Assembly (NCBI GenBank): GCA_022820505.1
Contig: JAJEFK010000054.1
Location: 1 to 64,000 of the forward strand
DNA length: 64,000 nucleotides
From: Acidimicrobiia bacterium
GTDB taxonomy: Bacteria > Actinomycetota > Acidimicrobiia > Acidimicrobiales > Poriferisodalaceae
Direction of reading: 5' to 3'
The translations under genes and the position numbers were made by a program. Each line of letters opens with the position of its first letter. Positions within the stretch are counted from its first letter, which is position 1. Under the pieces are notes generated by a model. It saw only the letters and a program-made list of their open reading frames with translations, did not search any database and had not been told where the DNA came from. Shown here one piece after another: positions 5,919 to 64,000 of this stretch.

Positions 5919-6175
5919 CCACCGGCTCCCAATTGGCTTCAGGGGCCGGATTCTGCTGGCAACAGCAGCGCAACAGCGGCCGGCCGTGCGCTCGCAATCC
6001 GGCGAGCGAGCGGCGCGCAGGCAAGACTCAGCCGCGGCCAGCAGACCCGACAGCAGTACGAGGAGCAGCCCCATGGTCGATCTCGCATCATCGGCGCGAC
6101 CCTCGGCGCCGTCGAGAACGCACTGCTCTACGCGGCGGCTCAGCGGCCTGCGCGATCGTCGTCCCCCGGCGGGCG

Positions 6176-51167: not shown

Positions 51168-54100
51168 GTGGCCCTAGTGGTGAACTCGGACGATGCGAAC
51201 AGGCGCCTCTTCCCCGCCGGCCCGCTGCGCGGCAGCTCGCTATTGCGGTGCTTGATTGCGGCCCTTGGCGTACTGACCGCTGCTGCGCTGCTGCCGCTCT
51301 CTGCGGGCGCGGCGACCCCTCCGCCAGGGCCATGCGAGTCTGGCTGGGTCGCGCCGGCTCCTGTTTCTGTGACTGTCACCGATGTCCCGATCGAAGTGGC
51401 CTCGACCACTGACGACTACTTTGTTCTGTACATCAGAATCGACAGCAGTTCGCCCACGACAGATCTGCCGATCGCCGTGGTGTTGGGGGAGGATGGGACG
51501 ACCTCTCTCGCGGACAATCTCAGTCCTTTGAGCGCCGATCGCTACCTCGTCGAGAAATACTCGGTGAGCCAGCCTGCCGACATCGACGGCGATTGCATCG
51601 ACGATCTCACCGAACTCGCAGATCTGGGAACTCACAATCCCGTGAATCCCGGGCAAATCAGCAAGAACGCTCTCGGCGCTGTGGCCATTCCGAATCGCAG
51701 CGCATTCGAGACGCTTGCCCTCAAGGGTGTGCCGATCGGCGGATCTTACTTTGGAGCTGTGGAGTACGTCAACTTTTGGATTCTGAATGCCTTGTCTGAT
51801 CGCCCGACTGTCTATTTCATGAATACCAACAATACGATTCGGCACTTGGATTTCGCCAAGAAGCTGGGCTTCCACGACACATTCCGTGATGAAATACGAG
51901 GCACACTCATCTATAACCCAAATGTCGTCGCTCCGGACGGGTCTTTGGGGGTCTACCGCCTTGATCCATCGTCAGCCCATTGGAACGACTTTCCGTTCAC
52001 GCGCGTGGAGCGAGCGTATGAGATTCTCGCGTCAGCGATGCCATTTCTCGACAACAATCTTGCCTACCATCCTATCGGCTGGTCGTTTTTGGACCAGTAC
52101 AATCGCCAGAAGGCAGACTTCGATGCATCGAGGGTCAACGTCTTGTTGCAGGAAGATATCTTGCCGGATGTGGGTTTCATTCCGCTGAATCAGGCGGAAG
52201 GGTATGGTCGTCTGCGGTTGATGGAGGACGGAGAGCATCCGCTGCCGTACGATGTTGCCATCTATCGTTCGCTTCCGAATGATCTGCCCCGTGTTGCTGG
52301 GACGATTACGACGGTGCCTCAGACGCCGTTGTCGCATGTGAACTTGCGGGCAATTCAGAATGGTCTCCCCAATGCGTTCATTCGGGATGCACTGGATGAG
52401 GAGTCCATCGTCTCCCTTATCGGAAGCTACGTTCACTTTTCCGTGACGGCGGATGGGTACACCGTTCGCAAGGCGTCCAAAGCCGAAGTCGATGCGCATT
52501 ACGAGAAGCTGCGGCCAGCACAGACGCAGACGCTGCAGCGTGATTTGAGCGTCACCGAGATCGCATCGCTCGCTGACGTAGAGTTTGCTGACTGGACTGC
52601 GTTCGGCGTCAAGGCCGCCAACGTTGCCGAGCTTACACATCTCTCACTGCCAGATGGTACTGCACCGGTCGGTTTCGCGATTCCGTTCTACTTCTATGAC
52701 GAATTCATGAAGCAGGCGACGGTCACTGAGAAAACTCTGCTCGGCAAGAAGAAATGGCCCGGCGACGAAAAGATCACGCTGGCCGCCGGAACGACGCTGG
52801 CCAGCGCCGTCACGCAGATGCTCGCTCACGCCAAGTTCCAGGCTGACTATGACATCCAAGAAGAGATGCTGGACGACTTGCGTGACGCCATCAAGGATGC
52901 CACCACTCCCCAGTTCATCACTGACGCCTTGACCGCGATGCACGCCAAGTATCCGGACGGACAGTCGTTACGGTACCGTTCGAGCACGAATAATGAGGAT
53001 CTGCCATCGTTCAGCGGTGCCGGTCTCTACAGCTCGAAAACCCAGGATCCTGACGAGACGGCAGATGACGGCATAGACAAGTCGATCAAGAGCGTCTGGG
53101 CCAGCTTGTGGAACTACCGTGCATTTCGCGAACGCGACTTTCATCGCGTCGACCACACCACGGTTGCCATGGGAGTGCTCGTACACCCCAACTACGAAGA
53201 CGAACTCGTCAACGGCGTGGCCGTCAGCTATGACCCATTCACGCATCGCGACGGCATGTTCTACGTCAACTCACAAGTCGGTGAGGACTTGGTCACCAAC
53301 CCCGAACCGCTGTCACGACCGGAGGAGATCCTCCTCGACGCCAACGGCATTGCGACGGTGCTGTCGTATTCGAACCTGAAGGCTTCACGACAGCTGCTCA
53401 TGACCGACGCGCAGATGCAGCAGCTGCGCAGCAATCTCGCCACGATCCACGATCACTTCAAGACGCTGTACGCCGTCCAGACCGGCGACGACTATGCGAT
53501 CGAGATCGAGTTCAAGATCACTGCCGACAACGTGCTGGCCATCAAGCAGGCACGGCCGTGGCTGTTTACCGAACCGCTCGTCGTGCCGAACCCAACCGTG
53601 TCTCTTGGCTTTGTCGACGACCAAGTCACCGAAGGCAACGATCTTCAGCTTGTGGTCACCCGCAGCGGTGGGATTCTGTCGGTACCTCTCAGCGTCGGCT
53701 TCACGGTGCACGAAACCGGCCAGATGCTCGTGAGCACGCTGCCCGCCGAAGTCACGATTCCTGCGAATCAAACCAATGCAACCATCGCTATCGGGACGGA
53801 GCCAGACTCTCAAGCCGAGCACAACAGCATCGTCACCGCCACCCTGAATACTGACGCCGGCTACACCCTCGGCGCTCCTCAGTCAGACACCGCAACTGTC
53901 GAAGACGACGACGGTCCGCTGTGTGATGTTGCGACGGCGGTCGGCCGGGCGCGTGCTGCGTTCGTGTGGCATGTCGACAACAATGGCGGCAACGAGGTTT
54001 GGTTCTGGCAGATCTTGGCCTATCTGGGTGCTGATCCGTTGCCTGCGCTGCCGGGCGGCGCAGTCCTCGCGTCGACCACTCCTGAGGCGGTGAAGACGTT

Positions 54101-57100
54101 CAGCGATGGCAAGTCGTGGCCTGGCTGGGTGCCCATCAACGCCGCCATGTCATGCCATCCCCCGCCGCCCGAGATCAGCATCGCAGCCGGCGCCGACATC
54201 GACGAGGGCGGCGACGCGATCTTCACGGTCAGCGCCGACCCCGCGCCGACAGCCGCGCTGGCTGTGACGGTGGCGGTCGTCGTGTCGGGCGATTTCGGTG
54301 TGTCGCCGGGGTCGCATACGGTGAGGGTCCCCACCACCGGCAGCGCCGCCTTGACTGTCGCTACGACCAACGACAGCGCTGATGAGGCTGACGGGTCGGT
54401 CACTGCGACGGTCGGTGCTGGCAGCGGCTACCGGGTCTCCGTTGCTGCGGGCACGGCCTCTGTTGGGGTGGCTGATGACGATGTGCCTGAGGTCAGCATT
54501 GCTGCGGGTGCTGATGTCGGTGAGGGCGGCGATGCGGTGTTCACGGTGTCTGCCAGTCCTGCGCCGTGGGCGGCTTTGGATGTGTCTGTGGCAGTCACCC
54601 AAGCTGGCGATTTCGGTGTGTCGCCGGGCTCGCGGACGGTCACGGTCCCGACGTCGGGCACGGCGACGCTCACGGTCGCTACGGCCGACGACAGCGCTGA
54701 TGAGGCTGACGGGTCGGTCACTGCGACCGTCGGCATAGGGAGCGGTTACACGGTGTCGGCTGTTGCGGGGACGGCTGCGGTGGATGTCCGGGATGATGAT
54801 GATCCGCCGGTGTCTGATCCTGTGGTGAGCATCGCTGCAGGCAGCGGTATCACCGAGGGCGGCGTTGCGGTGTTCACAGTTGCTGCTGTTCCGGTGCCGT
54901 CTGCGCCGCTGACGGTCGCTGTGTCGGTAGCGCAGGCGGGCAGTTTCGGTGTGTCGCCGGGCTCGCGGACGGTCACTGTTCCCACGTCGGGCAGCATCAC
55001 GCTGACGGTGGCGACGACCGGCGACTCGGTCGACGAGCCGGACGGGTCGGTCACGGCGACGGTCAGCGCCGGCACGGGTTACACCGTCTCTGCGACGGCG
55101 GGTTCGGCGTCGGTGGCGGTGTCTGATGACGATGACCCGCCGCCGGTGGCCGATCGGTGCGTGGCGGTGCTGTCGGGCGACGGGAGCGTGAGCGGGGTGT
55201 GGGCTGCGGGCTGCGGTTCGTCGGCGCGCTCCGGCCGCTATGCGCGGTATTACACGTTCTCGCTGGACAGCCCGGGCCGGGTGACGGTCGATCTGAAGTC
55301 CCCGGCTGACACGTATCTGTACCTGCGCCGCGGTGCGGGCCAGAGGTCGGGTGCTGCGTTGGCGTCCGACGATGACGGCGGCGGCAACTTTGACTCGCGG
55401 ATCAGCCGGACGCTTGCGGCGGGCGGTTACACGATCGAGGCGACGACCTATCACGCGTCGACGCCGGGGAAGTTCACGCTGACAGTGGACGGCATCCCGA
55501 CACAGACCGTGGCACCGCCGGACCCGGAGATCGCTATCGCTGCGGGCAGCGGGATCACCGAAGGCGGCGACGCGACGTTCACGGTCACTGCGGTTCCGGC
55601 GCCGTCGGCGGCGTTGGATGTGACGGTGGCGGTGACGGCAGCGGGCGATTTCGGTGTGTCGCCGGGGTCGCACACCGTCACGATCCCCACGACGGGCACC
55701 GCCACGCTGACGGTGGCGACGACCGGCGACTCGGTCGACGAGGCTGACGGGTCGGTCACTGCGTCGGTCAGCGTCGGGACGGGTTACACGGTCTCCGCAA
55801 CGGCCGGGTCGGCGTCGGTCGCGGTGGCCGACGACGATGCGCCGCCGACGGTGTGCGTGCCGAGTCTGCCGTGGGATGCGGTGACGGTGGCTGAGGTGAC
55901 CGGCTGGCGCGGCGAGCTCTCCCATGCTGCCCATCAGCAGCGCTGGGACCGGGTGCTGGCCGCTTTGGGGGTGGACACCGGCGAGGAGGCGATGACCGTG
56001 GCGGACGCGCAGGCGGTCAAGGCGCGGATCGACAACTCCCGCTGGGACCGCACCGTGCGCACGCTGCAGGCCATGGCCCAATGCGACACCGACCCGCCAC
56101 CTGCGCCTGCGGCGGACCCCGAGATCAGCATCGCTGCGGGCGGCGGGATCACTGAAGGCGGCGACGCGACCTTCACGGTCACTGCTGATCCGGCGCCGTC
56201 GGCGCCGCTGGCAGTAAGCGTCACGGTGGCCCAGACAGGCGACTTCGGCGTAGCGACCGGCACGCGCCAGGTGACCGTCCCGACATCGGGGACAGTCACG
56301 CTGACGGTGGCCACTGTGAACGACTCCGCGGATGAAGCCGACGGGTCGGTCGCTGTCACGGTCAACGGCGGCACCGGCTACACCGTGTCCGCGGCCGCGG
56401 GCACAGCGACGGTCGCGGTCGCAGATGACGACGATCCGCCTCCGCCGGTGGCTGATCCTGAGGTGAGCATCACCGCCGGCGGCGGGGTCACCGAGGGCGG
56501 CGACGCGACGTTCACGGTCACTGCTGTTCCGGCGCCGTCGGCGGCTTTGACGGTGGACGTGACCGTGGCTCAGGTCGGCGATTTCGGTGCCGCAACGGGG
56601 TCGCGGTCGGTCACGGTGCCGACGTCGGGCAGCGTCACGCTGACCGTCGCCACGACCGGCGACAGCACCGACGAGCCGGACGGGTCGGTGACGGTCGCGA
56701 TCGACGCCGGCAGCGGCTACACGGTGTCCCAGTCGGCGGGCACCGCGACGGTCGCGGTGGCCGATGACGACGACCCGCCGCCGAACGCGACGCCGTCGTT
56801 GTCGATCAGCGACGCGTCGGCGGACGAGGGTGGCACGCTGACGTTCACGGTGACGCTCAGCCCCGCCAGCGACCGGTATGTGTGGGTGCACTACTACGCG
56901 CGGCCCAGGTACGGGGCTGGGCTGTCGGCGACCTTCGCGGACTTCGAACAGGCCTACGGGATGCTGACCTTCAGACCCGGCGAGACAACCAAGACCGTCA
57001 CCGTGGCAGCGGTCGACGACAGCCGAACCGAAGAAGACGAGACGTTCGTAGTCGTCCTGTACGCCGAGGTCCAAGCAGCAGTCGCCGACGGCGAAGGCAT

Positions 57101-57125
57101 CGGCACCATCACCGACAACGACTGA
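51168..57125 (+). CDS. secreted PEP-synthase-like dikinase domain protein with Calx-beta repeats
   Basis: 1985 residues, GTG start (other GTGs at 51177 and 51180). Order: signal peptide (LIAALGVLTAAALLPLSAGA, cleavage near 49); unassigned region with a Ca-loop-like DIDGDCIDDLTEL; phosphohistidine swivel-like motif GTITTVPQTPLSHVNLRAIQ (His390); PPDK/PEP-synthase ATP-grasp from about 470 (AFGVKAANVAELTHLSL, LRYRSSTNNEDLPSFSGAG near 601, IKSVWASLWNYRAFRERDF, AIKQARPWLF near 795); then about eight Calx-beta-like units to the C-terminus, interrupted by a PPC-like domain (about 1328-1445) and two small Trp-rich helical modules (about 916-1000, 1561-1648). The PEP TIM barrel is absent. The chemistry is unknown. 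The first third is visibly AT-richer than the rest. Confidence 0.85.
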   Translation: MALVVNSDDANRRLFPAGPLRGSSLLRCLIAALGVLTAAALLPLSAGAATPPPGPCESGWVAPAPVSVTVTDVPIEVASTTDDYFVLYIRIDSSSPTTDLPIAVVLGEDGTTSLADNLSPLSADRYLVEKYSVSQPADIDGDCIDDLTELADLGTHNPVNPGQISKNALGAVAIPNRSAFETLALKGVPIGGSYFGAVEYVNFWILNALSDRPTVYFMNTNNTIRHLDFAKKLGFHDTFRDEIRGTLIYNPNVVAPDGSLGVYRLDPSSAHWNDFPFTRVERAYEILASAMPFLDNNLAYHPIGWSFLDQYNRQKADFDASRVNVLLQEDILPDVGFIPLNQAEGYGRLRLMEDGEHPLPYDVAIYRSLPNDLPRVAGTITTVPQTPLSHVNLRAIQNGLPNAFIRDALDEESIVSLIGSYVHFSVTADGYTVRKASKAEVDAHYEKLRPAQTQTLQRDLSVTEIASLADVEFADWTAFGVKAANVAELTHLSLPDGTAPVGFAIPFYFYDEFMKQATVTEKTLLGKKKWPGDEKITLAAGTTLASAVTQMLAHAKFQADYDIQEEMLDDLRDAIKDATTPQFITDALTAMHAKYPDGQSLRYRSSTNNEDLPSFSGAGLYSSKTQDPDETADDGIDKSIKSVWASLWNYRAFRERDFHRVDHTTVAMGVLVHPNYEDELVNGVAVSYDPFTHRDGMFYVNSQVGEDLVTNPEPLSRPEEILLDANGIATVLSYSNLKASRQLLMTDAQMQQLRSNLATIHDHFKTLYAVQTGDDYAIEIEFKITADNVLAIKQARPWLFTEPLVVPNPTVSLGFVDDQVTEGNDLQLVVTRSGGILSVPLSVGFTVHETGQMLVSTLPAEVTIPANQTNATIAIGTEPDSQAEHNSIVTATLNTDAGYTLGAPQSDTATVEDDDGPLCDVATAVGRARAAFVWHVDNNGGNEVWFWQILAYLGADPLPALPGGAVLASTTPEAVKTFSDGKSWPGWVPINAAMSCHPPPPEISIAAGADIDEGGDAIFTVSADPAPTAALAVTVAVVVSGDFGVSPGSHTVRVPTTGSAALTVATTNDSADEADGSVTATVGAGSGYRVSVAAGTASVGVADDDVPEVSIAAGADVGEGGDAVFTVSASPAPWAALDVSVAVTQAGDFGVSPGSRTVTVPTSGTATLTVATADDSADEADGSVTATVGIGSGYTVSAVAGTAAVDVRDDDDPPVSDPVVSIAAGSGITEGGVAVFTVAAVPVPSAPLTVAVSVAQAGSFGVSPGSRTVTVPTSGSITLTVATTGDSVDEPDGSVTATVSAGTGYTVSATAGSASVAVSDDDDPPPVADRCVAVLSGDGSVSGVWAAGCGSSARSGRYARYYTFSLDSPGRVTVDLKSPADTYLYLRRGAGQRSGAALASDDDGGGNFDSRISRTLAAGGYTIEATTYHASTPGKFTLTVDGIPTQTVAPPDPEIAIAAGSGITEGGDATFTVTAVPAPSAALDVTVAVTAAGDFGVSPGSHTVTIPTTGTATLTVATTGDSVDEADGSVTASVSVGTGYTVSATAGSASVAVADDDAPPTVCVPSLPWDAVTVAEVTGWRGELSHAAHQQRWDRVLAALGVDTGEEAMTVADAQAVKARIDNSRWDRTVRTLQAMAQCDTDPPPAPAADPEISIAAGGGITEGGDATFTVTADPAPSAPLAVSVTVAQTGDFGVATGTRQVTVPTSGTVTLTVATVNDSADEADGSVAVTVNGGTGYTVSAAAGTATVAVADDDDPPPPVADPEVSITAGGGVTEGGDATFTVTAVPAPSAALTVDVTVAQVGDFGAATGSRSVTVPTSGSVTLTVATTGDSTDEPDGSVTVAIDAGSGYTVSQSAGTATVAVADDDDPPPNATPSLSISDASADEGGTLTFTVTLSPASDRYVWVHYYARPRYGAGLSATFADFEQAYGMLTFRPGETTKTVTVAAVDDSRTEEDETFVVVLYAEVQAAVADGEGIGTITDND
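54171..56790 (+). repeat. tandem Calx-beta-coding repeats
   Basis: Six long units of about 315 bases begin with codons for PE[IV][SA]I.AG, followed by EGG.A.FTV, then GDFG, TVTVPT.G, LTVAT, DE.DGSV.A.V and GYTVS, ending VADDD. They are very similar at DNA level, so recombination or assembly collapse is possible. Confidence 0.8.
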
Positions 57126-57131
57126 CGCCAG

Positions 57132-60100
57132 TCACACGAGGGCGAGCCAGGTGACGCAGTAGACGTCGTCAGGCGTGATCTCGGGCAGCGGCTCGGGCGG
57201 TTCGTAGGGCTGCAGGCCCAGCGCGTCGATCACCCTGATGATCTCGATGGCCTGCTCAGCCGGGCTAGTCGAGCTCTTGAGTGCAGCAGCGAGCGTTCGG
57301 ATGGTTCGCTCCGGGTAGGGAGCAGTGATCGTGTCGACGGTGCGGTCGATGTCGTCTTGCGTCATCTCCGGTGGAGCGTGGTCACGCACTACTTGTGCGG
57401 CGCGGGCCAGCCGGGGCGAAATCCGCGGCTCGAGGTTCGCCTTGTCGGACATGACGTTCCATTTGCGGACAATGTCGTCCTGGGCAACTTTCCACGCCTC
57501 GAATGCGCCTTCGACATCGAAGTCTTCCAATGTGCGCGGGGTCTCGAAGCCGGCAGGCGGGCGGGCGAGGTCGAGGCAGGCCAGCGACTCGTCCACCACG
57601 TCGCCGGGAGATGATCCGTCCCGGCCGACGAATCGGAACAGGGGCGTCGGGTGGTCGCCGACGCGGGCGCAAAAGACGTAGCCGGCTCGCCCGTCGCCTG
57701 AGCGGGCTGCCATTCCCGATCCGGAGCCCCAGGGCAGCGAGGCGATGTGCTCCGCGAGATCTGCGTCCTCCATTGCCTGGCGCAGCTCTTGGCGGAACTC
57801 CTCACCCGACAGGACGCCCTTCGCTGTTCCGCCCCGCTCGAACATGGTTGCGTCCTCGCGACGGATGCGTTCTATCTCCTCGCGTGTCTCGGTGAAGTTG
57901 AGTTCGTGATGCTGGCCTTGATCGGGCAGTATCTCGCCGACGCCCACACTGGCCGCGGCTTGCGCGATCTTGCGGTGCAGTCGTTCGGAGAGCCCGAGCA
58001 GGTCGTCCAGCCGGCTGTCGGGAAAGACGCAGCGCAGAAATACCTCAGCGTGACGTGAGCCGATGCGGTCGATGCGCCCATGACGCTGCACGAGGCGCAT
58101 CGGGTTCCACGGAAGGTCGTAGTTGACGATGTGGCAGGCCTGCTGCAGGTTCACGCCTTCGGCCAGCACATCGGTTGCCACCACGATGTCGTACAGGTCG
58201 TCGTCGCGGCCCTCGGGCGCATCGGTGGTGCGCGGGGCGAATCCCCACAGCACCGATTCCTTGTCGGCAGAGCCCGAGCTGCCTGCCACCGAAGCGATGC
58301 GCCCCCGGTAGGCAGCGAGCCGAGCGTCGGTGTGGGTCACCGTTTCGAGGTGCTCGACGATCCAGTGGACGGTGTCGGCGTAGTAGCTGAAGATCAGCAC
58401 CTTGTGCCGGTCGCGGGTGTCTTCGGCACCGATGCCGTGGGCACGTGCGTCGGCGGCGATAGCGGCAAGCTCATCGGTGAGGGCAGCCAGGTTCGGGTCT
58501 GCATCCCGTGTCACAGTGCGTGCCTCGGCTGCGAAGTCGCGCAGCAGGTCTCGGTCACGCTCGGTGTCCTGGCGCAACCGCTCGATGTCGAATTCTGCAG
58601 CATCGTCGGTGACTTGGACCAGGTGGTCCAAGAAGGCGTCGCGCTGCTTGTCGTCGAAATCATCGGTGTCGGCGGCGATCCAGTCCGCCAGTACGTCCCC
58701 GGTGCCCACCCGGCCTCCGTCAAGCAGCGACAGGAACGCGTCGTGGCTGTTTGCCATGCGCACGCACGTCTCTGCGAAGGCGTGGGGCGACGATTCGAAA
58801 CGCTTCAACAGGCCCGAGCGCAGCAGCCCGGTGAGCTGCAGTTCGTAGGTGTCGATCGCGTGGTCAAGCCGGTAGCGCGAGGGTGCGTAGCGCGCCAGTG
58901 TGAGGGTGTTTGTGTCAGTGGATTCGTCAGTCAGCGGGCGCCCAGCGCTTGCCGGATCATCGGCCTTGGCAACGTCAGACTCCCCGGTGCTGACGACAGG
59001 GTCGGCATCGAGCGCTGCGGCGAACCGGTCGAAGAATCCGGGCAGGACCGCGTCGAGGTCGTAGTTCACCTTGCGGACCCGAGGGGTCGGGAAGACGATC
59101 GGCGTGTCGTGTCCGCCTATGCGCACGATGTCGTTGGGGTAGAAGCGCTTCACGAACGAACGGGTGCGGCGCACGGCCACGGCGTCGAGCACGTCGAAGA
59201 GATGCTCAGGAGTCAGGTCGTCGGGGTTGAGCGCGACGGCCTTGGCGAAGTGATCGCGCAGCGAGCCGATGCCGACGTCGGCGAATTCCGCGTCGTTACG
59301 AAGGAAGTAGCCCAGCAGGTGGTACAAGTCCCACAGGCTGTTGTTTACCGGCGTCGCAGTCAGCATGACGAGTTGCTTCGGCGGCGATCCGGCGAGCAGC
59401 CGTCGCAGCGCTTGTGCCCGCTGCGTGGATGGATTGCGCAGATTGTGCGCCTCGTCGATCACCACCATCGCGTAGTCGGTGACGTAGCGCTGTTCGAGCT
59501 TGGTGCCAGTGGTGTGCTCAGGGTTGAGTCGCCCGTCGCGCATCAACGCCTCGAACGACACGAGCTCCATCGGCAGGTTGTGCTCGGCTCGGAACGCACG
59601 CCACGGGCCGTCCCGCAGCGTGGCAGGCGTGATCACCAGCACCTTCTGGCGACGCTCCAGGGCGGCTTCGCGAATCAGCTCGCCGGCGAGGAACGTCTTG
59701 CCGAGACCAACCTCGTCGGCCACCAGCACGCCGTGGCGCTCGTCGAGGATGCGGCGCGCGCGCCACAGTCCGTCTGCTTGGAACGAGGTGAGGTGGATCT
59801 GCGGGGCGCCCTCGGCATCGGCTTCGGCTTGCAGCTCGTCGCCATATCGCTCCCACAGCATCCGCAGGTACACGAGCTGTGGTGAGTGCGGTTCGAACCT
59901 GGCCTCGAACAGGGCGGAGAGATCGTACGGGGCCGCTTGATCCCACAGCTCGTCGAACCACTCCTGCACTTGTGTCACGACGTACGGTGCGTAGTTGCCG
60001 AGGTTCAGCTCCAGGTTGGACGCGAGTCCGGCGTAGGTGAAGTTGGACGATCCAGCCACGACGCCGTGCGATCGGTCACCCACCACGAAGGCCTTGCCGT

Positions 60101-60572
60101 GCAGGAATCGGCCCTCGAGACGCCGCACTTCCACGCTTGGCGATGCCAGCCAATCGGTGAGGCGTCGCGCCGCTGCGTGGGACTGGCGGCTGAAGCCCAA
60201 GTGGTCGCGTTCGAACCGGAGGAGCTGTTCCTGTTTCGCCAGCGCGCTGTGCATCCGGGCCCGAGCTGCCCGTGCCGGGTGAGCCGGCTCGGTGTGCAGT
60301 GCTCGTCGGCGGTTCTCCGGCGGCTGCGGCTCGGCGCCCAGCAGCAGCCGGACGCCTGATGCATGGTCGAGCGCATCAGCCAGCAGGGAGTACCCGCCGA
60401 CATTGAAATAGGCGGTCGCAATGTCCACTGCGGCACCGCCCACGAAGCCGGTAGCGGCATGAGCGATGAACCCGTTCAGCGCCTGCGCCACGGTCCGGCC
60501 GTCACGGTTGACCGCCAGTTCGGGCTTGCTCGGCATCTCAGCCATTGCGGACTGACCCGAAGCGTCGCTCAC
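57132..60572 (-). CDS. PLD-nuclease / SNF2-type helicase fusion, defence type
   Basis: 1146 residues. Residues about 40-195 form a phospholipase-D-like nuclease domain with one HKD half-site: FLHGKAFVVGDRSHG (His158, Lys160) and AGSSNFTYAGL near 174. An SF2/SNF2 helicase follows: Walker A VADEVGLGKTFLA near 286, TPATLRDGPW, DEAH at 373 in VVIDEAHNLRNP, TATPVNNSLWDLY near 405, and motifs V-VI DVLAEGVNLQQA and QRHGRIDRIGSRHAE near 830. The tail is helical. Such PLD-SNF2 proteins pair with adenine methyltransferases in DISARM- and BREX-like phage defence. GTG start; later in-frame ATGs exist. It converges on the secreted giant gene with a six-base gap. Confidence 0.88.
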   Translation of the reverse strand: MSDASGQSAMAEMPSKPELAVNRDGRTVAQALNGFIAHAATGFVGGAAVDIATAYFNVGGYSLLADALDHASGVRLLLGAEPQPPENRRRALHTEPAHPARAARARMHSALAKQEQLLRFERDHLGFSRQSHAAARRLTDWLASPSVEVRRLEGRFLHGKAFVVGDRSHGVVAGSSNFTYAGLASNLELNLGNYAPYVVTQVQEWFDELWDQAAPYDLSALFEARFEPHSPQLVYLRMLWERYGDELQAEADAEGAPQIHLTSFQADGLWRARRILDERHGVLVADEVGLGKTFLAGELIREAALERRQKVLVITPATLRDGPWRAFRAEHNLPMELVSFEALMRDGRLNPEHTTGTKLEQRYVTDYAMVVIDEAHNLRNPSTQRAQALRRLLAGSPPKQLVMLTATPVNNSLWDLYHLLGYFLRNDAEFADVGIGSLRDHFAKAVALNPDDLTPEHLFDVLDAVAVRRTRSFVKRFYPNDIVRIGGHDTPIVFPTPRVRKVNYDLDAVLPGFFDRFAAALDADPVVSTGESDVAKADDPASAGRPLTDESTDTNTLTLARYAPSRYRLDHAIDTYELQLTGLLRSGLLKRFESSPHAFAETCVRMANSHDAFLSLLDGGRVGTGDVLADWIAADTDDFDDKQRDAFLDHLVQVTDDAAEFDIERLRQDTERDRDLLRDFAAEARTVTRDADPNLAALTDELAAIAADARAHGIGAEDTRDRHKVLIFSYYADTVHWIVEHLETVTHTDARLAAYRGRIASVAGSSGSADKESVLWGFAPRTTDAPEGRDDDLYDIVVATDVLAEGVNLQQACHIVNYDLPWNPMRLVQRHGRIDRIGSRHAEVFLRCVFPDSRLDDLLGLSERLHRKIAQAAASVGVGEILPDQGQHHELNFTETREEIERIRREDATMFERGGTAKGVLSGEEFRQELRQAMEDADLAEHIASLPWGSGSGMAARSGDGRAGYVFCARVGDHPTPLFRFVGRDGSSPGDVVDESLACLDLARPPAGFETPRTLEDFDVEGAFEAWKVAQDDIVRKWNVMSDKANLEPRISPRLARAAQVVRDHAPPEMTQDDIDRTVDTITAPYPERTIRTLAAALKSSTSPAEQAIEIIRVIDALGLQPYEPPEPLPEITPDDVYCVTWLALV

Positions 60573-60655
60573 GGTATCCCGGCGTGTGAGCGTTCACCAG
60601 GCTCGCTCGCGCTGTCGATACAGCCGGTGATCTCTTCGGCCTGCGGACCTGTCAT
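60569..60655 (-). CDS. 28-residue mini-ORF linking methyltransferase and helicase
   Basis: ATG at 60655 overlaps the methyltransferase stop (ATGA), and its TGA overlaps the GTG of the helicase (GTGA). The peptide begins MTGPQAEEITGCIDS and ends AGIP. Exact junctions on both sides suggest a peptide that keeps ribosomes moving through the operon. It has no recognisable family and may be fortuitous. Confidence 0.35.
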   Translation of the reverse strand: MTGPQAEEITGCIDSASEPGERSHAGIP

Positions 60656-61431
60656 GTCAATCTCCTGAAGTGTTCGATGACCGCCGCGAGCCGGTCCAAG
60701 TAGCGCTCGGGCCGCTTCTCGTCGAACGTGGTGTAGATGACCTCGAGATCGTCCTCGTCAAGGCCGTACAGGTGAGCTACGCACGCGTCGAGTTCGTGGA
60801 TCAGGTCCCGCTTGGTTGCCTCGTCATTCGCTGAGCCAACAGGCACGCCGACCTCTGAGGCCCACTCAGCGAAGCGGTCATCGACTGCAGCCAGCCGTCC
60901 CGTAATCTCCACCACCCGATCCCGCACAGGATTTCCCTTGCCCGGGTCCGGAATGGACAGCAATCCCAACTGCTCGAATGTCATGTGCAATTCGACACTG
61001 CGGCGAGCCTGCCAGTCACAGGGCATGGACGAAAGCACACCGAGAAGGAAGGCCTCATCCGTCGGCGTGCCAGCAACCCTGAGGAGATACGGCGCTTGAT
61101 GCACTATGACTCGCTCACCGGGCACGAGCGCTGCGATCAGCGAGCGTGTATCAGTCGCCCTAGCTACGTCACGAAAGGTGATTCGTGCGTGCAGACACGG
61201 CAACGTATCCGGATTGTCAGTAGTGGCGTGTTCCTGTGCGGCGAAGGCCGAGGCGGATTTCGAATGCTGCGTCAGGCGTTTGTCGTGTAGGTGCTCGATC
61301 ATCTCATCGGCAACGGCGCTGTCGTAGTAGGTGCCCGTGTCGGGCTCCCAGATGTTGAACGACGAGCCCTTGTAGACGGGCCAGATGTCAGGCATCTCGA
61401 GGCCCACTTGTTCGCCGAGCCGCAGCGCCAT
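60652..61431 (-). CDS. C-terminal fragment of Eco57I/PglX-type DNA methyltransferase
   Basis: 260 codons in frame, with an internal ATG at 61431 that is probably not a real start. The sequence continues the target-recognition and C-terminal part of the methyltransferase whose N-terminal part lies at 61971-64000: LGEQVGLEMPDIWPVYKGSS, then LPCLHARITFRDVARATDTR, IVHQAPYLLRVAGTPTDEAF and LGVLSSMPCDWQARRSVELH, the usual end of class I adenine methyltransferases of R-M and BREX systems. It is separated from the N-terminal part by repeated segments, homopolymers and frame breaks, so as assembled it is a fragment. Confidence 0.75.
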   Translation of the reverse strand: MALRLGEQVGLEMPDIWPVYKGSSFNIWEPDTGTYYDSAVADEMIEHLHDKRLTQHSKSASAFAAQEHATTDNPDTLPCLHARITFRDVARATDTRSLIAALVPGERVIVHQAPYLLRVAGTPTDEAFLLGVLSSMPCDWQARRSVELHMTFEQLGLLSIPDPGKGNPVRDRVVEITGRLAAVDDRFAEWASEVGVPVGSANDEATKRDLIHELDACVAHLYGLDEDDLEVIYTTFDEKRPERYLDRLAAVIEHFRRLT

Positions 61432-61628
61432 CGTCGTTCACGAACCGCTCCCGGTCCCGGGTCGCGTCGAACTCACGGACAGGGCGGAAGCGCCATCGTC
61501 GTTCATGAAGAGGTGTCGGTCGTGCGTCGCGTGGAGCTCGGCGATTGGGCGGAAGCGCCATCGTCGTTGAGGAAGCGGTGCCGGTCGGTCGTGGCGTTGA
61601 GGTCGCCCTGGACCGGTCGGAACCGCCA
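61425..61628 (-). repeat. three diverged direct repeats of a methyltransferase segment, out of frame
   Basis: Units start at 61425, 61490 and 61555 (periods 65, 65 and 68), with a partial fourth at 61623. On the minus strand each encodes a variant of FRP[VI], then ATxDRxxF and NDDGA, but a period of 65 shifts the frame each time. The units are about three-quarters identical, not perfect copies. Confidence 0.8.
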
Positions 61629-61663
61629 CGTTCGTGGCCGTTCCTGGTGCTCGAGAATCTTGC

Positions 61664-61742
61664 GGGGGGGGGGGGGGGGGGTCCGCGCGGCGTGCGCGTT
61701 CCCGCCAGAGAGAGGGGGGGGCGGGGGCCCCCCCCCCCCCCC
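61664..61742. other. homopolymer cluster: G18, then G8-C-G5-C15
   Basis: G runs from 61664 to 61681, and G8, one C, G5 and C15 from 61714 to 61742. The 32 bases between them resemble a diverged copy of the codons just beyond the second tract. Such tracts inside a gene are either slippage (phase-variation) sites or assembly junctions. Confidence 0.85.
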
Positions 61743-61970
61743 AGCGCGTCTGGCGCATTCGCGCCATCGAAACGCGGCTGCAGCTTCATACGCCGCCACA
61801 CGCGGAAGGCATCACGTCGCGGAATCTGCGGAAAGGCTGCTGTGTTGGACCAGCTCAGGAATTCTGAGACCGGGATCAGTTCGGGCTTGCCGTCGACCAG
61901 TTCTCGAAAGTGAGCGAGCGAGCGGGCCGGTCCGGGGTAGATCGCTACGTGCGGGTCGTCGGCTTCGGCC

Positions 61971-64000
61971 TCAAAGCCACCCCCATGGTTCGGCGCCCCG
62001 GCTGCGCTTGCGGGCCGCGACGATGGCGATCGTGTAGCGGCCGTCGACGTCGTCGAACGTCCATTGTTGGGCATTGAGGCACGTGACGACCGTGAGTTGC
62101 GCGTGACCGCGGCCAGCACCACCGTGTAGGAGTTGTGGACTCCCTCGAACACCCAGCCCTTGTGATTGATGAGGGTTGAGGTGGCGATGCACTGGATTTG
62201 CCCCCCCCCCCCCGTCGATGCTGACAATCTCCTGACGCCAGTTCGCCATGCCCGCGTCAGAGACGGCCGAACGCGGCAAGACGATGCCCAGCCTGCCGCC
62301 ATCGCGGCAGAGCGCGAGATTCGCCCACGCGAACGCCTTATACAGGTCGGTCTGGCCGGTGCCGAGATGGGGGAACGCCGCTCGCAGGATCAGCTTGAGA
62401 AACTCCGCGCGTTCTCGCTCGGACTCGAACTCCCCTGCGAGATCAGGCCGTTGTGCCTCCAGCGTGTCGATGCGTTCCCGGCGGCGCGCAACCGGCAGCG
62501 AGCGCACGCCGGGCAAGTGCATGCCCCACCACACTTCGCGGTCGACCACCACTTTCTCCCACGGCGGGTTGCCAAGCAGGCAATCGAAGCCGCTCCGCCC
62601 TGATCTCGCGAATACCTCGGGCCATGTCGTCGGGTAGTGAACGGGCGCCAGTCGTTCGATGACGCTTCGCACCACAGGGTCATCGGCCAGTGCGGCGATG
62701 CGAGCCGGGGTGAAGTCAAAATCGCGATGTATCTCGATCATCCCGGCACGGACAGCGGTCGCCACGTCGAACACGTCGTCGATTGGTCGGACTGCTGAAC
62801 GAGTGGCGAAGTGAGCTTCCCTCGCCGCCGCCACTTCCGACTTGTCAGCGTCATTCAGCGCAGCGAGCCGAGCCAGCGGCTCGTGGATCGCCTCGATCAT
62901 GATCTCCAACTGGTGTACGAACAGCGAGGGTTGCGATGTGTCTCCTTTGGGCCGAACAGCCAACGCGCCGTCCTCCACCGAAGCAACGCCGGTGAGGCTG
63001 TCGCCGTGGACGAGGTTGTGGTCGAGGAAGGACAGCGGGAGGCCGGGCACGAAGGTGTGGACCCAGATGGCGAGACGCGCCAGCTCGACGGCAACGCGGT
63101 TCTTGTCGACGCCGTAGACGCAGTGTCGAGCAATCTGGCGACGCAGTAGCGAGCCAGTCTCGATCTCGATGCCGTCGCCCAGGTCGCCGAGTTCGTCCAT
63201 GGCGACGTTTCGCAGCCTGTTCAGTTCCGCCGTGATCGCCGGAACCGGGTGTAGCGAAAGCCATGCCGACAGACGTGCCTCGATCCGGTCGACTGTCGCC
63301 ACGAGGAAATGAGCGGAACCCATGGCGATGTCTGCACACCGGAAGTCGAAGAACGCCGCAGCCACCCCAGCGTCGTCATCAGCGTTTCGCAGCGTGTCGA
63401 GTCGGGCGAGGTGGTCGTCGAGCGCAGGTTCGAGCGCGTGATCCAGCAAGTGCTCTACCGCGAACGGCTTGGTGAAGTAGGAACCTGTCGCCTTGCGGGT
63501 GCCGGAAAGGTTGTGGAAGTACACCTCGCCGGCCTTCACCACCGCCTCGTCCTTCGCTCCGGCAGGCACATACTGCAGGTCGCTTTTGACTTTCTTGACG
63601 GTCAGATCGTCAGGTGCAACTGACAGCTTCGATTCCAGCAAACCCTCATAGATCGTTCCAAACTCCCGCACCGACAGCGACCGGAAGTCGACGGGACCCA
63701 GCCCCTGAGGGCCGTGGTCGACCAGCGCCGCCGCAAGAGCGGGACCGAACTCGGCGTTAGTGAGGCGCAACTGTGCGATCGCTGCGCCGGTAGGGCTGAC
63801 CTTCGGATCCTCAGAGAACAGGCCTCCGTTGTAGGTCGGCACGCCCCAGTCGGCGTTGCCCTGGTTGACCGCATCCCACAGGCCGCATACGTCATCCCAC
63901 ATGTCGGTGGCGCGCTTGTCGAAATGAGTCCTGGCGTTGTGCTCGCCATCGGCGAGTCGTTGAGCCATGCGCGACAGCGAGTGATCCGCGTAGCGGCCGT
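61971..64000 (-). CDS. Eco57I/PglX-type class I DNA adenine methyltransferase, N-terminal part (5' end outside window)
   Basis: The frame is open to the right edge; the ATG at 63968 is internal to conserved sequence, so the gene starts beyond the window. Features in order: PTYNGGLFSEDP, FGTIYEGLLESKL, KATGSYFTKPFAVEHLL (methyltransferase entry helix), the SAM motif I CADIAMGSAHFLVATVDRIE, YGVDKNRVAVELARLAIWV and the catalytic FDCLLGNPPWEKVVV near 62560. Such enzymes make N6-methyladenine in type IIG, BREX (PglX) or DISARM-like systems. The good frame ends at the C13 tract (62201-62213); beyond it, sequence continues in other frames (LINHKGWVFEGVHNSYTVVL, then SEFLSWSNTAAFPQIPRRD). As given the gene is disrupted. 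Confidence 0.8.
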   Translation of the reverse strand, partial: GRYADHSLSRMAQRLADGEHNARTHFDKRATDMWDDVCGLWDAVNQGNADWGVPTYNGGLFSEDPKVSPTGAAIAQLRLTNAEFGPALAAALVDHGPQGLGPVDFRSLSVREFGTIYEGLLESKLSVAPDDLTVKKVKSDLQYVPAGAKDEAVVKAGEVYFHNLSGTRKATGSYFTKPFAVEHLLDHALEPALDDHLARLDTLRNADDDAGVAAAFFDFRCADIAMGSAHFLVATVDRIEARLSAWLSLHPVPAITAELNRLRNVAMDELGDLGDGIEIETGSLLRRQIARHCVYGVDKNRVAVELARLAIWVHTFVPGLPLSFLDHNLVHGDSLTGVASVEDGALAVRPKGDTSQPSLFVHQLEIMIEAIHEPLARLAALNDADKSEVAAAREAHFATRSAVRPIDDVFDVATAVRAGMIEIHRDFDFTPARIAALADDPVVRSVIERLAPVHYPTTWPEVFARSGRSGFDCLLGNPPWEKVVVDREVWWGMHLPGVRSLPVARRRERIDTLEAQRPDLAGEFESERERAEFLKLILRAAFPHLGTGQTDLYKAFAWANLALCRDGGRLGIVLPRSAVSDAGMANWRQEIVSIDGGGGANPVHRHLNPHQSQGLGVRGSPQLLHGGAGRGHAQLTVVTCLNAQQWTFDDVDGRYTIAIVAARKRSRGAEPWGWL
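62201..62213. other. C13 homopolymer (G13 on coding strand) in the methyltransferase
   Basis: On the coding strand a G13 run follows the codons for IVSID. With 12 or 15 G the frame would continue into IQCIATSTLINHKGW; with 13 it does not. This is the arrangement expected of a slippage switch. Confidence 0.8.

Follow-up and report, generated by a model that had tools for sequence, protein, structure and literature searches.

A predicted exported histidine-swivel phosphotransferase with a Calx-beta tail in an Acidimicrobiia bacterium, and its relatives in nine phyla

The 64,000 nt stretch of Acidimicrobiia bacterium contig JAJEFK010000054.1 analysed here (positions 1 to 64,000 of the forward strand, assembly GCA_022820505.1; hereafter the window) carries, at 51168–57125 on the + strand, an intact open reading frame (ORF) with a GTG start that encodes 1985 aa. 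The ORF is a real gene and chance is excluded, because a paralogue in the same genome is 71 % identical over the core and because 242 of 305 candidate stretches from a scan of genome collections encode relatives, the best 80 of which were kept for the analyses of loci. The product appears to join a phosphohistidine swivel and an ATP-grasp domain, as in phosphoenolpyruvate (PEP) synthase and pyruvate phosphate dikinase (PPDK), to features of an exported protein. A whole-protein Pfam scan returned PPDK_N at residues 479–797, one Calx-beta domain at residues 1888–1968 and no other family at E ≤ 1. An AlphaFold model of residues 45–824, built with 56 sequences (predicted local distance difference test score, pLDDT, 87.1; predicted template-modelling score, pTM, 0.69), recovered both the ATP-grasp and the swivel fold with the ATP-site residues kept. 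Invariance is counted below over an alignment of 56 members.

The ATP-grasp domain spans residues 461–800 (52548–53567, +). Pfam PF01326 (PPDK_N) matches it with an E value of 3.9e-20 and 72.8 bits against a cut-off of 27, and all 56 aligned members match PPDK_N at E ≤ 1. Using VIA, residues 461–800 were matched to rifampin phosphotransferase (RPH; 5hv1) with Z 27.7 over 292 residues at 2.6 Å; the modelled domain also matched PEP synthase 2ols (Z 27.0), HpeI (9goj; Z 21.9) and 1dik (Z 19.2). His390, Lys482, Arg602, Arg604, Glu610, Asp611, Ser623, Glu781, Gln794 and Arg796 are each present in 56/56 rows. By motif alignment, Lys482, Arg604, Ser623 and Glu781 would correspond to Lys22, Arg117, Thr136 and Glu297 of RPH, with His390 mapping on His825. 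The RPH study describes His825 as the phosphate carrier, has Lys22, Arg117 and Thr136 positioning the ATP phosphates and Glu297 apparently binding Mg, and reports Lys22Ala as inactive (PMC4844700). Since Lys482, Arg604, Ser623 (Thr in RPH) and Glu781 are kept throughout the family, the nucleotide and metal site is intact as judged from sequence and model. An earlier sequence-only reading of the window had named a PEP-synthase/PPDK-type ATP-grasp here, to be abandoned if the ATP-binding residues were lost; the fold is borne out and the residues are retained.

The swivel domain lies ahead of the ATP-grasp, at residues 335–455 (52170–52532, +). His390 (52335–52337, +), the predicted phosphocarrier, sits in the motif TPLSHVN. 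VIA aligned residues 336–437 with residues 478–582 of Staphylococcus aureus pyruvate kinase 3t05 (Z 9.4, 96 residues, root-mean-square deviation (rmsd) 2.8), a C-terminal segment that forms the PEP-utilizing swivel domain of that enzyme. In Pfam, GWD1_pHisD is the second most frequent family match, found in 14 of the 56 members at E ≤ 1 (best E 0.0041); the scores seen, 11.4–17.1 bits, all fall below the cut-off of 27, and the window protein itself has no GWD1_pHisD match at E ≤ 1. Pfam scans of the window protein and the 56 members contained no PEP/pyruvate TIM-barrel family. The swivel-first order and the missing PEP barrel, both claimed in the sequence-only reading, thus hold, the order being the same in sequence and in the AlphaFold model.

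Between the N-terminal region and the swivel lies a divergent domain, residues 161–334 (51648–52169, +). Its mean pairwise identity is 0.36, in comparison with 0.58 for the swivel and 0.60 for the ATP-grasp, yet His226 and Gly245 are invariant in the alignment. Modelled alone, it gave a pLDDT of 88.6 and a pTM of 0.85. A Foldseek search against the PDB returned nothing at E ≤ 0.001; known families outside the match lists may still share the fold. The best Foldseek candidate, polyphosphate kinase 1 (E 0.13, probability 0.23), was not built on; the VIA comparison with the same enzyme (Z 4.5, 118 residues, rmsd 6.9) was below the noise level of the tool, and a role in handling polyphosphate is no more than a passing thought. 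From position and divergence alone, it is proposed that the 161–334 domain binds the phosphate acceptor.

Several features across the family support export. Residues 1–48 of the window protein (51168–51311, +) resemble a signal peptide, in which a hydrophobic stretch is followed by LSAGA|AT with cleavage expected near residue 48, as read from the translation. Among relatives whose N-terminus is closed, 68 of 74 passed a rough signal-peptide rule, as did 127 of 298 neighbouring ORFs, so the rule is unspecific and its result supportive; a slightly different rule applied to all 80 loci was passed by 67. Tat export was considered and set aside for the window protein: its RR pair is too distant from the hydrophobic segment, and no family-wide pattern was seen by eye; for these reasons the Sec route is assumed. 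A small beta domain (51345–51617, +; strands from AlphaFold) follows, and at its end is a thrombospondin-3-like calcium loop (DIDGDCIDD). Such a loop directly precedes the divergent domain at 59 of 79 loci, compared with 1 of 345 control ORFs. The other 20 loci are L031 and 19 Poribacteria; by eye, the latter have a DxDxNxELS segment resembling an EF hand close to the N-terminus. Cys56 and Cys143 flank the small beta domain; both occur in 27 of the 56 rows, neither in 22 and one in 7 (uncorrected for kinship), and this co-occurrence makes a disulfide likely. Additionally, a distant member (L021) has a lipobox-like start by eye. In Bacteroidota, the type IX secretion system (T9SS) type A sorting domain (TIGR04183) scored above cut-off in 10 of 10 tails tested and Pfam Por_Secre_tail was found at loci L077 and L087. 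The sorting domain is thereby seen at 12 of 13 Bacteroidota loci, the remaining one being an interrupted gene (L081) outside the scan; it is a feature of these relatives and not of the window protein. Taken together, signal-peptide-like starts, calcium loops, the cysteine pair, T9SS tails and tail domains of extracellular type (CARDB, SprB, fn3, cadherin and Calx-beta) support the claim of export made in the sequence-only reading.

The C-terminal tail (53580–57122, +) comprises about eight Calx-beta-like units. The last begins at residue 1878 and is the sole unit to pass Pfam (1888–1968; E 2.5e-9, 37.6 bits against a cut-off of 27); by pattern count, seven more start at about residues 811, 1003, 1109, 1220, 1455, 1653 and 1766. 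Cys-containing spacer segments lie between units, with a beta segment lacking a family assignment at approximately 1331–1445. A PPC-like domain had also been proposed, and no PPC match was found in the whole-protein Pfam scan or in a fragment scan covering most of the window protein. The tail had been treated as part of the puzzle posed by the protein. Its presence stands, but it is unnecessary for the core: Poribacterial members, in frames of 717–770 aa, stop 1–2 residues past a Q[AV]RPW motif and consist of the catalytic core alone. Judged by sequence, the Calx-beta tail was added in particular lineages. Other members carry CARDB and SprB (L077), fn3 and cadherin (L057), or, elsewhere, Calx-beta-like units. 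Within the window's own genome, the tail modules are matched 22 times, in several cases within further long ORFs (contigs C16, C6, C43, C58, C2 and C40), suggesting that they are shared, shuffled parts of its secreted surface proteins.

The members used fall into nine phyla by record title and tree grouping, with the usual caution on the binning of metagenome-assembled genomes (MAGs): Actinomycetota, Chloroflexota, Bacteroidota, Poribacteria, Verrucomicrobiota, Binatota, Latescibacterota, Pseudomonadota and Planctomycetota. The two PPDK_N genes of the window's genome both belong to this family. Pfam Peptidase_M13_N weakly matches 9 of the 56 aligned members (best E 1.5e-4) and was not seen in a scan of 10 members. 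Genomes carrying the family number 6 of 10 within the genus and, counting the genome itself, 5 of 296 in a class-wide sample (E ≤ 1e-40). The tree interleaves rows from Actinomycetota with those from Chloroflexota, with 7 and 10 changes, of which 7 and 9 are forced by starred branches. This suggests horizontal transfer of the gene; paralogues or mis-binned MAG contigs could give the same intermixing, and what is claimed is a patchy distribution. At one Bacteroidota locus, from Neolewinella agarilytica (L081, 5506–8145), the gene is interrupted, its ORF ending at 6057 and the rest resuming at 6136, unlike the intact gene of Neolewinella persica (L093).

A cousin is encoded on a plasmid of Streptomyces sp. 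NBC_00080 (WP_142270066.1, annotated as PEP/pyruvate-binding domain-containing). It shares the three-part core and the invariant residues, and differs in having no evident signal peptide and no tail. When it was used as the query across the phylum, two near-copies turned up in 396 genomes; all other matches were partial, nearly all to the ATP-grasp alone. Its gene sits in a compact run (L103, 2124–6951) between genes for an ATP-grasp protein and a major facilitator superfamily (MFS) transporter. This run may serve to produce a small molecule, phosphorylated or ligated, and to move it out of the cell.

These features point with reasonable confidence, from sequence and model, to an exported, calcium-stabilized, three-domain His-swivel phosphotransferase of the dikinase type that would act on an extracellular acceptor. 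ATP bound in the ATP-grasp would phosphorylate His390, yielding phospho-His390, AMP and phosphate. The swivel would then carry the phosphate to an acceptor held on domain 161–334, where the invariant His226 may assist the transfer, the acceptor itself presumably lying outside the cell. In Acidimicrobiia and some Chloroflexota, the adhesin-like Calx-beta tail probably anchors the enzyme to the cell surface or matrix. For the acceptor, the leading guess is a glycan belonging to the envelope or to the matrix around the cell, a tentative guess with the odds against it. Somewhat better placed, if still short of an even chance, is the wider proposition that a widespread and as yet undescribed family of His-swivel dikinases uses extracellular ATP to phosphorylate, covalently and outside the cell, a glycan or matrix component through a new acceptor-binding domain.

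Several observations weigh against the exported phosphotransferase. ATP is scarce outside cells, and no ATP donor system was found for the exported enzyme. The sequence-only reading had proposed looking for conserved genome neighbours; across phyla, none was found among the 80 loci, which give no clue to the substrate. The neighbour clusters present in more than 3 of the 80 loci were the Poribacterial ones, explained by gene order shared inside the phylum, and one composed of pieces of Calx-beta tails. The acceptor-binding role of domain 161–334 is drawn from position and divergence, and the signal-peptide rule is as unspecific as stated above. The signal-less Streptomyces cousin indicates that the three-part architecture does not require export. 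In RPH, Glu297Ala was still active, so that one of the conserved residues is dispensable there (PMC4844700).

The Streptomyces cousin bears on two further explanations. Its position between ATP-grasp and MFS-transporter genes resembles a small-molecule pathway, as would suit an extracellular ligase-type activator in which the phosphate of His390 activates a small molecule for condensation, as happens with PigC and RedH, prodigiosin ligases that also contain PPDK_N. The NCBIfam models for PigC and RedH do match the ATP-grasp (E 4e-11 and 2e-8), but both are far under their cut-offs, the full-length PigC score being 41.6 versus 1300 bits, and exported members have no conserved biosynthetic neighbours; this explanation is considered unlikely. 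The cousin's missing signal peptide would also fit a protein that is cytosolic or active before export, its signal sequence having been misread, and the start codon is unproven, several GTG codons being closely spaced at the 5′ end of the ORF. The T9SS tails at nearly all Bacteroidota loci, the calcium loops, the Cys pair and the lipobox-like start of L021 speak for family-wide export, and a cytosolic protein, which the sequence-only reading had named as the finding that would overturn it, is highly improbable.

The invariance of the active site counts against a catalytically dead ATP- or ligand-binding module within an adhesin, an alternative raised in the sequence-only reading. The long adhesin-like tails of the window protein and its close relatives would suit such a module, but the tested ATP-site residues and the carrier His are invariant in 56/56 rows and tail-less members keep them, so that it is quite unlikely. 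Another alternative is an extracellular ATP scavenger, in which phospho-His390 is hydrolysed and ATP is converted to AMP and phosphate for uptake. The wide, patchy spread of the family without a fixed partner gene would then be explained, and RPH variants still act as ATP pyrophosphatases although they pass no phosphate to the drug (PMC4844700). The conserved third domain with its invariant His226 would be left unexplained, however, and simple nucleotidases scavenge ATP without a swivel. On balance, scavenging is likewise distinctly improbable, and the exported phosphotransferase is retained as the working explanation.

Those phosphotransferases of the PEP synthase superfamily with which the protein was compared are known to work inside the cell or in plastids. 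No description of a secreted PPDK_N family was found in the open-licence literature searched, and prior work elsewhere is possible. The reading adopted is that the family forms a new branch among the His-swivel dikinases, one working outside the cell, whose third domain lacks a family assignment. If this is true, bacteria in nine phyla would carry out ATP-dependent phosphohistidine chemistry beyond the cell boundary, by way of exported proteins that keep an intact active site. It could then be asked what these enzymes phosphorylate there, what supplies their ATP and which ligand the third domain takes up. Experiments are within reach through the core-only form from Poribacteria and the member from cultured N. 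persica.

Directly downstream in the window, 57135–60572 (−) encodes a 1146 aa protein with phospholipase D (PLD) and SNF2 helicase domains (Pfam PLDc_2, SNF2-rel_dom and Helicase_C). It looks like a defence-type helicase, with PADLOC matches to HKD+Snf2 (1.3e-46) and DrmD (1.1e-45). Beyond it, at 60655–63968 (−), separate ORFs carry fragments of a type IIG restriction-modification or DrmMI-like gene. In profile PDLC03620, 61974–63968 matches positions 415–986 and 60655–61431 matches positions 1132–1355; the gene is probably split or frameshifted.

Compared with known enzymes, PEP synthase and PPDK share the PPDK_N ATP-grasp and His swivel with the window protein, which differs in having no TIM barrel, a swivel that comes first and export; the PEP synthase equivalogs of NCBIfam score 61.7 and 51.8 bits versus cut-offs of 598 and 739.75. 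HpeHI, CreHI and phenylphosphate synthase are alike in their ATP-grasp, as the HpeI match indicates, and differ in being divided between two subunits and in using phenolic substrates; the carrier His of HpeH is described as essential (PMC12167813). RPH is the best solved fold match to the ATP-grasp, with equivalent nucleotide, metal and carrier residues. Its order of ATP-grasp, rifampin-binding domain and swivel last (PMC4844700) is reversed in the window protein, which has no rifampin-binding domain, and the NCBIfam RPH model NF041857 matches over the ATP-grasp alone with 40.6 bits versus 999, far under cut-off.

The closest likeness in mechanism is to the glucan, water dikinases (GWD) and phosphoglucan, water dikinases (PWD), in which a His swivel and a PPDK_N ATP-grasp phosphorylate a target other than pyruvate. 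In plant GWD the swivel precedes the ATP-grasp, and the window protein has the same order. The family differs in being exported whereas GWD is plastidic, in a third domain that looks unrelated, and in a swivel that matches GWD1_pHisD weakly in some relatives. CBM45 and CBM20 starch-binding domains are not among the Pfam matches of the window protein at E ≤ 1. The enzyme is not classed as a GWD, because GWD1_pHisD stays below cut-off in the scores seen and is absent from the window protein. The comparison drawn in the sequence-only reading is nevertheless supported as the best mechanistic analogy, and by that analogy the window enzyme may work like GWD.

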